A program made the translations under genes and the position numbers. A stretch of 64,000 bases of DNA, from the NCBI RefSeq assembly GCF_000017545.1, contig NC_009718.1, positions 1,364,001 through 1,428,000 of the forward strand, read 5' to 3'. This document shows positions 22,422 through 47,584 of this stretch, one piece after another. The stretch is from Fervidobacterium nodosum Rt17-B1. Its GTDB lineage: Bacteria; Thermotogota; Thermotogae; Thermotogales; Fervidobacteriaceae. The notes beneath the pieces were generated by a model. The model worked only from the letters and a program-made list of their open reading frames with translations. It did no database searches and was not told where the DNA came from. Position 1 is the first letter of the stretch; the number at the start of each line of letters is the position of its first letter.

Positions 22422-22456
22422 AAAAAAAGCGGTCGGGTTTCTTCAACCCGACCGCT
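22422..22456 (-). terminator. Attenuator terminator upstream of aspartokinase
   Basis: On the minus strand AGCGGTCGGGTT (22456-22445) and AACCCGACCGCT (22439-22428) form a perfect 12-bp G+C-rich stem with a 5-nt loop, followed by seven Ts (22428-22422). It lies 60 nt before the aspartokinase start and 29 nt after the leader stop codon, so transcription of the operon has to pass it. Confidence 0.92.
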
Positions 22457-22510
22457 GGTTTTTTGTAACAGCAAAATGGTGTACCTATAATTTCCAGCGG
22501 TCGGTACACC
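22447..22510 (-). promoter_or_regulatory. Antiterminator and pause hairpin of the methionine attenuator
   Basis: Alternative pairings on the minus-strand RNA. Pause hairpin: GGTGTACC (22510-22503) with GGTACACC (22485-22478), 8 perfect bp. Antiterminator: CCGACCGCTGG (22504-22494) with CCAGCGGTCGG (22458-22448), 11 perfect bp, using the 5' arm of the terminator. The leader peptide ends at 22485, so a ribosome finishing translation would cover the antiterminator's 5' arm, while one waiting at the Met codons (22529-22512) would block the pause hairpin. This is the arrangement of trp- and his-type attenuators. Confidence 0.85.
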
Positions 22511-24935: not shown

Positions 24936-25686
24936 AATTCTTGAATTTATCAATACATGTTGCAAACTAAATTGTTTTTGTTTTCCTTGTCCAACTATAG
25001 TCATAGAACTATATATTATATATTACTTATTATATATACTATATAGGGTGGTAAATTGGTAAGTTTACACGGTGGTAACACAAAAAGGTACAATTCAAAG
25101 GGCTTTATGAATTTTTTTGAACGTACCATCTTATTCATAAAAACTTACCGCAAATGGTAAATTTCTCCAAAAATTGTTTATTCATAAGTATTTGTGTTTG
25201 GTAAATTTTTATAAAGCATATGAATAAAAAATTTTTCGAATGTTTTTTCTCAAAATTCATGGTAAAAAAATTTTCAATTGGTAATTTTGGTAAGTTACTT
25301 GTTGAGACTTTTTCTCAATTAACTATATATAGTCGACTAACTTTTATAAATACTATATATTGTATTAAAATAATTACCACTAAGGGTAAAAACTTACCAA
25401 AAATATACCATAAATATACCAACACTATATATTGTGTTTAATTTACCAATTTATGTCAATATATAGTATACTAATGAACTTAAATAATATGGTTTAAAAG
25501 TTTTATAGAATTAAAAAAATTAGTTTTAGATTTTGAAGTATTCGTAAGCATCTAAGATATTTGTAAAGTTAAAACGTTTCGTGTTCATTTTTTTATTTTT
25601 TGGTGTATAATTATTTGGGTAAAGTGTATAATAAGTATAATAAAATGTACTTTTGGTTTTAGAGAATTGAAAAAATAATTTTGTAG
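24936..25686. other. Candidate chromosomal replication origin: A+T-rich, iteron-bearing intergenic region
   Basis: No convincing gene lies here. Between 25050 and 25447 there are nine GGTAA and four TTACC pentamers; the GGTAA copies dominate the left part and the TTACC copies the right. Several are extended, such as GGTGGTAA at 25047-25054 and 25071-25078 and AAACTTACC at 25141-25149. These resemble, with mismatches, the AAACCTACCACC DnaA box reported for Thermotoga maritima (from memory). A 45-bp nearly pure A+T tract (about 25003-25045) could be an unwinding element. Palindromes around TATATA lie at 25322-25333, 25349-25366 and 25421-25438. Genes are mostly minus to the left of 22.4 kb and plus to the right. 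Confidence 0.45.
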
Positions 25687-25695
25687 GTGGTTTTA

Positions 25696-25986
25696 GTGTC
25701 TGAAAAATCTATAAGGGTTTTGTTTTATGTTATGGCACTCGTAAGTGTTGTGCTATTTTTGTTTTTACTCATATATGTTAAAAAGATTAAAAATGAGCCT
25801 TTAGCTATTATTGAAGGAATTTACGGTAGTGTTTTTTTGGATGGTAGACGTTATGAAGGGACCGTAATTCTTGAGCCGAATAAGACATATGAGGTTATAG
25901 GTTCTGCAACGATAAGTCAGTTTGGAGGCAAGAAGAAAATTGTTAATTTGCAACACTTTGAGGTGAAGGTTGTATGGGAGAAATAA
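25696..25986 (+). CDS. Small membrane-anchored protein of unknown function (96 aa)
   Basis: One TM helix (about residues 9-29) and then about 65 residues, probably beta-rich, exposed outside the cytoplasm (IIEGIYGSVFLDGRRYEGTVILEPNKTYEVI). No family was recognised. GTG at 25696 is chosen because GTAGGTGG lies 5 nt upstream; a GTG at 25687 is part of that site. Its end overlaps the following DUF4416 gene by 13 nt, so it belongs to the housekeeping operon that follows. Confidence 0.7.
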   Translation: MSEKSIRVLFYVMALVSVVLFLFLLIYVKKIKNEPLAIIEGIYGSVFLDGRRYEGTVILEPNKTYEVIGSATISQFGGKKKIVNLQHFEVKVVWEK

Positions 25987-42904: not shown

Positions 42905-43594
42905 ATGAAAAAAAATTTAGAGGAAATATTGCAAAATTTGGAAAATTGTGAAATTTTTAAAGGTATAAGCAAGGATTTTATAATGGAAATTTTAAAGGAA
43001 GCTAAAATCGAGAATTATAAATCAAAAGAAATAGTCCGCTATCGTGGGGATGATTGTGATGAGATTTTAATCCTTGTGGAAGGAGAAGCCTATGGCTTGT
43101 TTACAAATACAGAAGGAAGAGTTTTGCAGATTGACCATATGTTGGCTCCAAAACTTTTAGCCTCAGCGGTTATATTTTCGACAGATGCCAAATACCCTGT
43201 CGATGTGGAAACAGTAAGACCATCAGTATTCGTAACTATTGGAAAAGATACTTTTGTGAAATACCTTATGAAGAATGAGACTTTGCTCCGTAACTACCTT
43301 AGGTATGTAAGTGATGCGTTTATATTCATCACAGACAAATTTTACGAAGTTGCAATGAAAAACCTCGTTCAAAAGGTTTGTTCTTATCTATTAAAGCTTT
43401 CAGAAGAACAAAATTCTTTGAAAGTTACTATGGATATGTCAAAAGAAGAATTGGCTCGAGAGTTCGGTGTTACCCGTCCAGCTTTATCGAGGGTTTTTAT
43501 TGAGCTTGAGAAACAAGGGATAATAAACGTAAATAATAGGATTGTTGAAATAATCGATGAAGATTATATTAGAAATTTTGCGGAGTTTGGATAA
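42905..43594 (+). CDS. Crp/Fnr family transcription regulator, possible hcp regulator (229 aa)
   Basis: An N-terminal cyclic-nucleotide-binding fold (about residues 10-130), a dimer helix and a C-terminal HTH with SKEELAREFGVTRPALSRVFIELEKQGII (about 180-208, read in parts). There is no Fnr-type N-terminal cysteine set. ATG at 42905 with GGGAGG; an upstream in-frame start would include that site. Because the gene is divergent from hcp, it may be an HcpR-like sensor of nitric oxide, as Crp/Fnr regulators next to hcp often are; that is inference from position. Confidence 0.85.
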   Translation: MKKNLEEILQNLENCEIFKGISKDFIMEILKEAKIENYKSKEIVRYRGDDCDEILILVEGEAYGLFTNTEGRVLQIDHMLAPKLLASAVIFSTDAKYPVDVETVRPSVFVTIGKDTFVKYLMKNETLLRNYLRYVSDAFIFITDKFYEVAMKNLVQKVCSYLLKLSEEQNSLKVTMDMSKEELAREFGVTRPALSRVFIELEKQGIINVNNRIVEIIDEDYIRNFAEFG

Positions 43595-43628: not shown

Positions 43629-43657
43629 TTGACATTTATTTTCCAAAGTTGTACAAT
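43629..43657 (+). promoter_or_regulatory. Promoter of the ABC exporter leader transcript
   Basis: TTGACA (43629-43634), exact 17-bp spacer, TACAAT (43652-43657). Transcription should begin near 43664, giving a leader of about 275 nt before the terminator at 43907-43940. Confidence 0.85.
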
Positions 43658-43705
43658 TAAACATAATAAAAACGATAAAATTTTTCAATAAAAAATCCGG
43701 AGGGA

Positions 43706-43940
43706 GGGTTGTCCGATGAGAATTAGTAGTCTGAGTTTTGTGAAGAGTAGTTCTTCATATTTCTTTTTTATTGGACAACCCGAGTCATGGAGTCAGAGCC
43801 CTTCGGAACGTTTTCTTGAATTGCTAATTAGTTAATGGTGTATAGCTCAATTCCTCTTTTTTAATTAATGAATACACTAATTAACTAATAAAATAAAAAA
43901 TAGGCTAAAACTCCACGGGTTGTCCCCGTGGAGTTTTTTT
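43706..43940 (+). promoter_or_regulatory. Transcription attenuator controlling the heterodimeric ABC exporter
   Basis: Three copies of one 9-nt segment define it. A (43706-43714) and C (43917-43925) read GGGTTGTCC; B (43773-43781) reads GGACAACCC. A:B can extend over the leader start codon to about 17 bp with G-U pairs. C forms part of the terminator: CTCCACGGG (43911-43919) with CCCGTGGAG (43925-43933), then seven Ts (43934-43940). B:C pairing would destroy the terminator. Another hairpin (43827-43843 with 43872-43889) holds the leader stop codon and brings B and C together. A ribosome held on the leader ORF would free B, so translation arrest should switch the exporter on. Confidence 0.8.
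43716..43835 (+). CDS. Leader peptide of the ABC exporter operon (39 aa)
   Basis: ATG at 43716, 7 nt behind GGAGGGAGGG, and stop TAA at 43833-43835. The sequence is Ser- and Phe-rich in its first half (SSLSFVKSSSSYFFFIG) and ends SERFLELLIS. The ribosome site and start codon lie in arm A of the attenuator and codons 20-22 in arm B, so translation and RNA folding are interlocked. By comparison with BmrB of Bacillus subtilis, which controls the bmrCD exporter, it probably senses ribosome-targeting drugs or slowed translation. No similarity to BmrB sequence is claimed. Confidence 0.65.
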   Translation: MRISSLSFVKSSSSYFFFIGQPESWSQSPSERFLELLIS

Positions 43941-43973
43941 ATTCAATGTTTTAGTGTTAAGGAGGGAAAGGGT

Positions 43974-45782
43974 ATGAAAGAAGCAAAAAGCACTGGAGAT
44001 TTAAGAACGATACTACATTACATGAAAGGTTACACATTTTATTACGTGGTCGCAGTTTTATCCACAGCACTTTCTATATTATTTTCCAGGCTTATCCCTT
44101 TAGTTGTGAAATTTACAATTGACAACATTATTTCTAATAAGAATATAGAATCAAAATTTCTCAGTAGTATTTATTATGAATTCGGCGGTCGAGAGTTTTT
44201 TCTTCGAAATTTGTGGCTCGTTGGTTTAATTGTTGTCGTATTTGCATTTTTTAACAGCTTTTTTTCTTTCTTAAGAGAAAAAATGGCGGGATATACGTCT
44301 GAAAATTTTGCCAAAAAATTAAGGGACGACTTATATAACGTTATTCTAAAAGCGGAATATGGATTTTATTCAAGGTTTCAATCGGGTGATGTTATACAAA
44401 GATGTACATCAGATGTTGAGACGATACGAAGATTTATTGCAGCAGATGCGATAAGTATCTGGAGGATTATTTTTACAATATTTCTTGCTTTGTTTGTTAT
44501 GCTAAAGCTCAATGTGAAAATGACATTAGCTTCATCTGCGATGATTCCTGCATTATTTGGAAGTTCTTTATATTTTTTCGTCAAAGTGAAGAGATATTTC
44601 GAGAAAGTTGATGAGGCGGAAGCGGCAGTTACAACGGTCGTTCAGGAAAATATTACGGGAGTTAGGGTAGTCAAGGCTTTTACGAGAGAAGAATATGAGG
44701 TGAAAAAGTTTTTGGAGAAAAACACTGAGTACAGGAAACTTGATTTAAAATTGCTCAAGTTGTTTGCCAATTTTTGGTCAATTTCTGACTTTTTAGCGTT
44801 TTCACAATTTGTTTTTACTATTATATTTGGAACTTACTTTACTGTAAAAGGAGAAATAACTGTCGGGACTTTGATAGTGTTTACAACATATGTTGGAATG
44901 TTGATGTGGCCTGTTAGAGAGCTTGGGATATTATTATCTAACTTTGGGAAAGTGAAAGTTTCATTAAAGAGAGTCAATGAAATTCTTTCAGAGAAATTGG
45001 AGAATTTAGAGGACGGCAGAGAAATTAAGTTAAATGGTGATATAGAGTTTAGGGACGTTTGGTTTGGGTACAATCCGGAACATCCAGTACTCAAAGGCGT
45101 TTCTTTCAAAATTAGCAAAGGTGAGAAAGTTGCGTTTTTTGGTGGGACTGGATCGGGTAAGTCGACAGTAATTTCGTTGCTTATGAGGTTATATGATTTA
45201 GATAGCGGAAAAATATTAATCGACGGTATAGATATTAGAGAAATACCGAAAAGCGCCCTTAGGAAGAACATAGGCCAGGTTCCACAAGAGGCTTTCGTTT
45301 TTTCAAAAACAGTGAGGGAAAATATAGCTATTACAAAGCCTGATAGCGATATTGAAGAAATCATCCTTTCAGCCAAGCTTGCATCTGTTCATGACGATAT
45401 TGTGAAATTTGAGAGAGGATACGATACCTTGGTAGGTGAAAAAGGGATAACGCTTTCAGGTGGACAGAGGCAGAGGTTAACAATCGCGAGAACTTTGGTA
45501 AATGACTACCCGATTTTAATATTTGATGATTCCATGAGCGCTGTTGATACTGAAACGGAAAGAAAGATACTTGAGGCGATAAGAAAAAGAAGTGAAAACA
45601 CAACAACGATAATCGTGTCACATAGGATTTCAAGTATAAAAGATGCTGATAAGATTATAGTTTTCGAAAATGGTGTGGTAACTGCGATAGGTAATCACGA
45701 AGAATTAGTGAACCATCCAGGGCTTTACCAAAGAGTTTGGAGAATTGAGAATGTACTTAAACTCACGGAAACAGGAGAGTGA
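43974..45782 (+). CDS. Heterodimeric ABC exporter, subunit with degenerate nucleotide site (602 aa)
   Basis: Half transporter: six TM helices (about residues 15-320) and a nucleotide-binding domain (about 345-600). Walker A GGTGSGKST, Q-loop IGQVPQEAFVFS, signature LSGGQRQR, Walker B ILIFDDSMSAVD, switch His in IIVSHRISSI. The catalytic Glu after Walker B is Asp, as in the non-hydrolysing site of TM287-type exporters. It pairs with the next gene (start 6 nt after its stop). ATG at 43974 with GGAGGGAAAGGGT; a start at 43920 would begin inside the terminator. Likely exports drugs, lipids or peptides. Confidence 0.93.
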   Translation: MKEAKSTGDLRTILHYMKGYTFYYVVAVLSTALSILFSRLIPLVVKFTIDNIISNKNIESKFLSSIYYEFGGREFFLRNLWLVGLIVVVFAFFNSFFSFLREKMAGYTSENFAKKLRDDLYNVILKAEYGFYSRFQSGDVIQRCTSDVETIRRFIAADAISIWRIIFTIFLALFVMLKLNVKMTLASSAMIPALFGSSLYFFVKVKRYFEKVDEAEAAVTTVVQENITGVRVVKAFTREEYEVKKFLEKNTEYRKLDLKLLKLFANFWSISDFLAFSQFVFTIIFGTYFTVKGEITVGTLIVFTTYVGMLMWPVRELGILLSNFGKVKVSLKRVNEILSEKLENLEDGREIKLNGDIEFRDVWFGYNPEHPVLKGVSFKISKGEKVAFFGGTGSGKSTVISLLMRLYDLDSGKILIDGIDIREIPKSALRKNIGQVPQEAFVFSKTVRENIAITKPDSDIEEIILSAKLASVHDDIVKFERGYDTLVGEKGITLSGGQRQRLTIARTLVNDYPILIFDDSMSAVDTETERKILEAIRKRSENTTTIIVSHRISSIKDADKIIVFENGVVTAIGNHEELVNHPGLYQRVWRIENVLKLTETGE

Positions 45783-45787
45783 ATAGT

Positions 45788-47584
45788 ATGGAAGAAATTA
45801 TTCAAGAAAGGCAAACCAAGTTTAATCCTAAATTGTGGGCTAAATTTTGGATTTTCTTAAAGGAGTACAAATTTCACTTCATTTTTTTAATAATAATTAT
45901 GATTCTTGTTGGGCTTATCGATGCAACTTATCCATATTTGACTAAATATGCTATAGACAATTTTATTGCCAGAAAAAATTTGAATGGTTTTAGCAAATAC
46001 TTTATTTTGCTCTTAGCAATAGGCTCTTTACAAGCATGTGGAACGTATTTTTTGATAACACTTGCTGGAAAAATAGAAAATGGTTTTGCCTATAATGTTA
46101 GAAATGCGTCATTTAAAAAGCTTCAATCTTTATCGTTATCATTTTTCGATAATACACAAACGGGTTTTCTCATTTCGCGCGTGATGTCTGATGTTCAAAA
46201 AGTCAGTTCAGTTATGTCATGGCAGATAGTTGATGGAGTTTGGGCTATTTCTTCTATGACGTTTATTTTAATTTACTCTTTCTTACTTAGTTGGCAACTT
46301 ACACTTTTCATACTTTTTGCAATTCCATTGATTGCTTTTGTCGGTTGGTATTTCCAAAGAAAAATACTTAAACAATACAGAATTGTCAGAAAGCTTGTTT
46401 CAGAAGTGACGGGTATATACAATGAAGGACTGATGGGTGCAAAAACAGTAAAGGTATTGTCTGTTGAAGATTTGGTATCGAAAGATTTTAAAAAACATAC
46501 AGATGAGCTGAAAAATGCTTCGATAAAAGCTACCATTCTTTCAGGAATGTACACTCCGATAGTTATTTTCATCGGTAATATAGTCACAGCTCTTATTCTT
46601 GTGTACGGAGGAAAGAGAACGTACATAAATGTTTTAAGTATCGGTACTTTGAGTGCAGCTATTTCTTATTCCATCCAATTTTTCGAGCCAATATATCAAC
46701 TTGCAAGAGTATTAGCTGACCTTATATCAGCTCAAGCAGCTGCCGAAAGAGTTCTCGAACTCATCGAAACTGAACCTGAGATATTGGATACCCCTGATGC
46801 CATTGACGTAGACATTCAAGGGGAATTGGTTTTTGATAATGTATCGTTCAAATATTCAAAAGGTGACTGGGTTATTAAATCGTTTAACTTAAAAGTTCGT
46901 AAAGGGGAAACAATCGCTCTTGTAGGTGATACCGGTGCTGGAAAAACAACGATAGTAAATTTAATAGGCAGGTTTTACGAACCAACTCAAGGTACGATAT
47001 ACATAGATGGCGTAGATTACAGAAAAATCAAAATAAAAAAACTGAGAGAAAGCATAGGCTATGTACTTCAAACACCGCATTTATTTAATGGGACTATCGC
47101 TGAGAACATAAGATACGGTAGGCTAGATGCAACAATGGAAGAAATAATAGAAGCGGCAAAATTAGTAAATGCCCATGATTTTATAATGAAATTGGAGAAT
47201 GGGTATGAAACAAACGTTGGTGAAAGCGGTGCGAATTTATCACTCGGTCAAAGACAACTTATTTCACTTGCGAGGGTTGTGATTGCTAATCCGAAGATTT
47301 TAGTATTAGATGAAGCAACAAGCTCTATAGACACATATACGGAACATTTAATACAAGACGCTATTCACAAACTGCTAAAAGGAAGGACAAGCTTTGTCAT
47401 AGCCCACAGATTATCCACTATAAGGAACGCCGATAAGATATTGGTTATTGAAAATGGGGAAATAATAGAAGAAGGTACACATGAACAATTGATGAGGAAA
47501 AAAGGAAAGTATTACAGATTGTATATGAACCAATTTGTACAAGAGAAAGAAAAAGAGATATTGGGAGAGAAAGAGCAGGTTTAG
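45788..47584 (+). CDS. Heterodimeric ABC exporter, catalytically complete subunit (598 aa)
   Basis: Half transporter with six TM helices (about residues 20-325) and a nucleotide-binding domain. Walker A GDTGAGKTT, Q-loop IGYVLQTPHLFN, Walker B ILVLDEATSSID with the catalytic Glu, and switch His in VIAHRLSTI. The signature reads LSLGQRQ instead of LSGGQ, which would weaken the composite site formed with the degenerate partner. This is the asymmetric pattern of the TM287/TM288 type. ATG at 45788 with AGGAG upstream. Confidence 0.93.
   Translation: MEEIIQERQTKFNPKLWAKFWIFLKEYKFHFIFLIIIMILVGLIDATYPYLTKYAIDNFIARKNLNGFSKYFILLLAIGSLQACGTYFLITLAGKIENGFAYNVRNASFKKLQSLSLSFFDNTQTGFLISRVMSDVQKVSSVMSWQIVDGVWAISSMTFILIYSFLLSWQLTLFILFAIPLIAFVGWYFQRKILKQYRIVRKLVSEVTGIYNEGLMGAKTVKVLSVEDLVSKDFKKHTDELKNASIKATILSGMYTPIVIFIGNIVTALILVYGGKRTYINVLSIGTLSAAISYSIQFFEPIYQLARVLADLISAQAAAERVLELIETEPEILDTPDAIDVDIQGELVFDNVSFKYSKGDWVIKSFNLKVRKGETIALVGDTGAGKTTIVNLIGRFYEPTQGTIYIDGVDYRKIKIKKLRESIGYVLQTPHLFNGTIAENIRYGRLDATMEEIIEAAKLVNAHDFIMKLENGYETNVGESGANLSLGQRQLISLARVVIANPKILVLDEATSSIDTYTEHLIQDAIHKLLKGRTSFVIAHRLSTIRNADKILVIENGEIIEEGTHEQLMRKKGKYYRLYMNQFVQEKEKEILGEKEQV

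Follow-up and report, generated by a model that had tools for sequence, protein, structure and literature searches.

A candidate ribosome-mediated attenuator ahead of a heterodimeric ABC exporter in Fervidobacterium nodosum and related Thermotogota

The window, meaning the whole 64,000-nucleotide stretch of the Fervidobacterium nodosum Rt17-B1 genome (1.95 Mb, single contig) that was analysed, contains a gap between a Crp/Fnr-like gene, which ends at position 43594, and a pair of ABC half-transporter genes, which begins at 43974. A short open reading frame (ORF) and an intrinsic terminator lie in this gap. The locus raises the question of whether a ribosome on the ORF decides if transcription continues into the exporter genes and, if it does, whether the peptide or the pace of its synthesis is sensed. 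Based on the sequence and on folding models, the leader would act as a ribosome-mediated attenuator of transcription into the genes for a heterodimeric exporter of the TM287/288 type, a reading to which a probability of roughly 0.8 is given.

Anatomy of the leader and the exporter operon

The anatomy of the leader (Table 1) agrees with the sequence-only reading, which had described a near-ideal promoter, a 39-codon ORF with a very strong ribosome site, and a 9-nt segment present at the ORF start (A) and again inside the terminator (C), with its complement (B) between the two. The antiterminator proved more extensive than that reading had it: B together with TGGAGT (segment D) occupies the entire GC-rich 5' arm of the terminator, beyond its apex. 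Classical antiterminators likewise take up the whole 5' arm.

Table 1. Features of the leader and the exporter genes (positions in the window)
Feature	Positions	Strand	Remarks
Sigma-70-type promoter, TTGACA-17-TACAAT	43629..43657	+	11/12 consensus match
Shine-Dalgarno sequence of leader ORF, GGAGGG	43703..43708	+	7 nt 5' of ATG; overlaps segment A
Segment A, GGGTTGTCC, anti-antiterminator	43706..43714	+	directly 5' of ATG; A:B pairing includes the start-codon AT
Leader ORF, 39 codons, MRISSLSFVKSSSSYFFFIGQPESWSQSPSERFLELLIS	43716..43835	+	stop codon 43833-43835
Segment B, GGACAACCC	43773..43781	+	exact complement of A and C; starts at codon 20
Segment D, TGGAGT	43788..43793	+	pairs with ACTCCA 43910-43915; B + D form the antiterminator strand
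Long AT-rich hairpin in B-C spacer	43827..43889	+	seen in the F. nodosum Rt17-B1 genome; shortens B-to-C distance
Intrinsic terminator, 13 bp, 5-nt loop, then U-tract	43907..43937	+	
Segment C, GGGTTGTCC	43917..43925	+	terminator apex; repeat of A
ABC exporter half-transporter, degenerate Walker B FDDSMSAVD	43974..45782	+	
ABC exporter half-transporter, canonical Walker B LDEATSSID	45779..47584	+	atypical signature LSLGQ

Segments A, B and C make up 3 of the 8 copies of the 9-nt word in the whole genome, and the leader as a whole folds 6.3 sd better than its dinucleotide shuffles. The A/complement/A triple is registered as two overlapping 8-mer matches in the window; shuffled sequences contain 0-2 8-mer triples per 64 kb, and no 9-mer triple occurred in 20 shuffled 64-kb sequences. 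Two other 8-mer triples in the window were inspected, and neither is a leader of the A/B/C kind.

The exporter genes overlap, and the adjacency of one half-transporter with a degenerate and one with a canonical Walker B motif is the mark of a heterodimeric exporter. Matches among solved structures are P-glycoprotein-like exporters and, among those built from separate half-transporters, TM287/288 and YheI (BmrC). By sequence, the exporter belongs with the heterodimers TM287/288 and BmrCD; a heterodimeric ABC exporter had been described in the sequence-only reading. No NCBIfam family or equivalog matched the exporter proteins above cutoff, and no relatives were found in viral contigs. Homologues that are 39-43% identical do occur on two gut-derived scaffolds labelled phage (L154 and L156), where inspection by eye found, immediately 5' of the exporter gene, a promoter-like box, a ribosome site, an ORF of 20-26 codons and a strong terminator (about 1090-1345 and 990-1170, respectively). 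The ORFs are MTMMILTLVSRANGLTATALSAQMRP and MTKSKLTSKGIIVCAAGSAR; these leaders are apparently of the same kind as that of the window, with unrelated sequence. These two homologues suggest that this class of exporter has repeatedly been put under leaders of this kind.

Elsewhere in the window, two other features were noted. An AT-rich intergenic gap of 1 kb (24936-25973), with GC content down to 0.22, is rich in GGTAA/TTACC words, which run in either orientation, and also contains TATATAGT repeats; it may be left over from mobile DNA, or it may resemble an origin or a partition site. The second feature, at 22428-22505, is a hairpin of perfect terminator-like form, AGCGGTCGGGTT / AACCCGACCGCT, with TTTTTT after it and another copy of AGCGGTCGG about 35 nt further on.

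Conservation of the leader among Thermotogota

Eight further genomes of the family contain orthologues of the first exporter subunit, 51-68% identical. One genome was left out because its contig ends inside the gene, which leaves 7 with complete upstream DNA. In all seven, which are spread over three genera, as in the window, a Shine-Dalgarno sequence, A and ATG are followed by B and by a terminator whose apex is formed by C, giving eight leaders. Each of the eight combines a short ORF and its ribosome site with a promoter upstream, an intrinsic terminator downstream and the exporter next; the promoters of the other leaders, judged by eye, consist of a TTGAC(A/T) box and an AT-rich -10 element at similar spacing. 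Near the presumed transcript start of L034 (about 1168-1185), L032 and L033 there is a short hairpin that reads GTTTGCAAAGCAAAC or nearly so, and near copies are also found 3' of the -10 box in L126-L128. As a genome-wide family this hairpin was rejected, its frequency being no higher than that of the reversed control.

Conservation within the leaders is selective. Identity across the eight is 84% in the block of A, Shine-Dalgarno sequence and ATG, 76% in B (90% in its core) and 78% in the terminator, and falls to 37% in the interval between A and B, where the ORF is effectively unalignable; the exporters themselves differ at a third to half of their residues. The spacing from ATG to B is nearly fixed (44-57 nt, cv 0.08), that from B to C variable (41-139 nt, cv 0.44). 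The former may represent the distance that a ribosome has to span, while the latter would only set the time allowed.

The pairing letters have changed together in one genus. In genomes G009 and G013, C is GGGTTGCCC and B is GGGCAACC; as segment A, G013 has GGGTTGCCC and G009 has GGTTGCTC. This amounts to a correlated change from T/A/T to C/G/C at A/B/C, and leaders L029 and L030 show G-U intermediates. With eight sequences, formal measures of covariation are weak, at p about 0.06 for A:B and about 0.05 for B:C cognate pairing; the case is made by selective conservation and by correlated change in three places, not by the covariation statistic. The sequence-only reading had staked its claim on conservation of A, B and C in relatives, and the layout in 8 of 8 leaders, together with the correlated T-to-C change, upholds it.

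A covariance model of the A-to-B element matched exactly these eight genomes, the window's included, among the 103 Thermotogota genomes searched, and no match was found in the rest. Furthermore, none of 29 genes for paralogous exporters in eight genomes is preceded by a leader of the A/B/C type. The leader and the orthologous exporter therefore appear to travel together. In a pattern scan across genomes of 84,980 species, 77 matches were obtained. For one in Thermosipho (L090) the check confirmed a terminator containing C, and one in Fervidobacterium (L088) is the G001 locus, where C lies further on and was hence missed by that filter; the remaining matches are taken as chance. Conserved terminators ahead of exporters in G004, G007 and G008 were considered as leaders and rejected, as by eye they directly follow a glutamate dehydrogenase-like gene.

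Exclusive pairings and the sensor

With the A arm removed and the 3' arm of the terminator not yet made, B paired with C at probabilities of 0.76-1.0 in all eight leaders, at both 37 and 65 C. A second antiterminator helix, formed by the segment after B and the lower 5' arm of the terminator, was found in the window leader, L028, L029, L030 and partly L034; the post-B segment reads TGGAG in L028, L029 and L034 and GGGGTT in L030, with CTCCA or AACTCC as partners. Without a ribosome, A:B prevails and the terminator is favoured in 6 of the 8 leaders; A:B is weak in L031 and L033, for which a ribosome-free off state is not predicted. A model was also computed in which the ribosome was set at successive codons and only the RNA ahead of it was folded. 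Here B:C pairing was possible with the ribosome in about codons 1-13 and was lost once B was covered, leader L029 folding otherwise at some early positions. These computations support A:B and B:C (with D) as mutually exclusive states, in keeping with the earlier proposal that the first pairing permits the terminator and the second prevents it. Once the transcript is complete, the terminator prevails in 7 of 8 leaders even with A removed, so that antitermination, as modelled, must be a kinetic, cotranscriptional choice. A choice during transcription is expected of attenuators.

Three-segment exclusive pairing is also used by riboswitch expression platforms and RNA-binding antiterminators, and conserved leaders of ABC transporters with unknown sensing have been listed previously (PMC2965389). 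A switch that senses a ligand or a protein, with the ORF incidental, is nonetheless highly improbable. No aptamer-like element is conserved, the interval between A and B keeping only an open frame and its spacing; the leader matches no Rfam 15 family at the gathering score; and in the alignment the Shine-Dalgarno sequence and ATG of the ORF are kept in all eight leaders.

The proposed attenuator would operate as follows. Transcription would begin at the promoter, and a ribosome would load onto the leader ORF, whose translation is predicted. A ribosome moving at normal speed would either cover B or pass it, with A:B re-pairing, before the polymerase makes C; with no ribosome present, A would pair directly with B. 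C would then fold into the terminator and transcription would stop. A ribosome that is slow or stalled in about codons 1-13 would instead keep A off B and leave B free, and B with TGGAGT would capture the emerging 5' arm of the terminator, allowing the polymerase to enter both exporter genes. Because A contains part of the ribosome site, A:B pairing would also shut off translation of the leader, closing the switch.

What such a switch would sense depends on whether the peptide or the frame is under selection. In 6 of the 8 leaders the frame stays open as far as B, and in the other two (G009 and G013) it ends 4 nt short of B. An open frame in all eight has a chance expectation of about 1e-5, which shows selection for keeping it open. 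In G009 and G013 a terminating ribosome would cover B, as the ORF stops 4 nt 5' of it. The peptides, in contrast, share nothing beyond GQP, which is B read in one frame, and leader L028 reads B in another. The closest pair gives dN 0.26 and dS 0.33 for the leader (dN/dS near 0.8, over only 16 codons), compared to dN 0.067 and dS 0.85 (dN/dS 0.08) for the exporter. A search for the leader peptide in plasmids, phages and 61 relatives returned nothing above chance-level scores.

These observations bear on the specific translation-arrest peptide that the sequence-only reading had postulated. In a sensor of the ErmCL, MsrDL or RLR type, a given nascent peptide and a given drug would together stall the ribosome and open the switch. 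The ORF and a possible stall position fit such a sensor, and an RLR motif is used by rli80-hflXr (PMC6310831). Codons 2-13 show a slight excess of basic residues (25/96 versus a shuffled mean of 18.2, p = 0.03), which leaves room for macrolide-type stalls in some species; the +X+ motif, present in 4 of 8 leaders, is no more frequent than chance (p = 0.16). Set against the unconserved peptide, the other frame of L028 and the dN/dS near 0.8 over those 16 codons, an arrest peptide is unlikely, and that claim is not borne out. The same observations favour, on sequence grounds, a general sensor of slow early elongation. Amino-acid attenuation of the trp type, in which the ribosome stalls for want of a single amino acid, would use the same RNA logic, and the window leader has a serine run (SSSS). 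No residue run is common to the eight leader peptides, and the switch controls an exporter, not an operon for biosynthesis or uptake; this explanation is scarcely credible.

Since the peptide sequence hardly matters, the attenuator probably reads a general slowing of early elongation, as would be caused by ribosome-targeting drugs, and a putative efflux pump is probably induced in response. A tentative extension, given somewhat short of even odds, is a peptide-independent timer. On this reading, selection keeps nothing but the start site, the pairing letters and an open frame whose length is fixed, and the open frame from A to B is about one ribosome footprint long plus slack. Such a timer would measure whether the leading ribosome has left about 15 codons behind before the polymerase synthesises the terminator, and would close itself via its own ribosome site.

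Known systems and the meaning of the leader

One close precedent is the bmrB leader of Bacillus subtilis, for which ribosome-mediated attenuation of the heterodimeric exporter BmrCD is established and which is induced by drugs that target the 50S subunit (PMC4191407). Both systems have a leader ORF (translated in bmrB, predicted to be so here), a terminator, an antiterminator and an anti-antiterminator, and a heterodimeric ABC exporter downstream (PMC4191407). The likeness described here is one of layout. The 53-codon ORF of bmrB contains the terminator, whereas in the Fervidobacterium leader the terminator follows the stop codon at a distance of 71 nt; A overlaps the leader ribosome site only in the latter, whose promoter, unlike that of bmrB, has no known link to AbrB. 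The proposal of a Thermotogota version of bmrB-type attenuation is supported as regards the A/B/C layout and exclusive folding, and is not supported as regards a specific arrest peptide.

The same three-part logic governs rli80-hflXr in Listeria monocytogenes, where loss of the start codon locks the switch off and loss of the anti-antiterminator locks it on (PMC6310831). Its short ORF also spans the anti-antiterminator, with a separate antiterminator and terminator; lock-off and lock-on are predicted for the Fervidobacterium leader. In contrast to the latter, rli80 controls a ribosome-splitting factor and encodes a peptide of 14 aa that carries the stall motif RLR; the Fervidobacterium-type leaders share no peptide motif. 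Nor do the eight leaders have the conserved arrest peptide or motif of the drug-specific erm/msrD type. In Escherichia coli, the toiL uORF of topAI-yjhQ responds to several classes of ribosome-targeting antibiotics, which stall ribosomes at different positions (PMC12121999). One uORF can thus answer many drug classes, as may the Fervidobacterium leader, although toiL acts on translation initiation and Rho-dependent termination rather than on an intrinsic terminator.

Within the phylum, TM287/288 of Thermotoga maritima shares the architecture of the exporter, one of the ATP sites being degenerate (PMC4997860). The genomes searched on the Thermotogaceae side hold only paralogues of about 34% identity, none of those searched with an A/B/C-type leader. 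A bulk listing of candidate attenuators upstream of ABC transporters names no Thermotogota in its main text (PMC2965389), and no paper on this leader was found in the open library searched. The leader is newly recognised; the principle of the switch is already known from bmrB-bmrCD and rli80-hflXr.

Leader-ORF attenuation of drug-type exporters would thereby be extended from Gram-positive bacteria, where the close cases were found, to a distant phylum of thermophiles, with eight natural variants in which the sensor appears separable from the peptide. If the timer holds, any elongation stress in thermophiles, including temperature shifts, would trigger the switch, not only drugs. More generally, the leader offers a hint at the role of the Thermotogota heterodimeric exporter, a pump probably made when ribosomes are in trouble.
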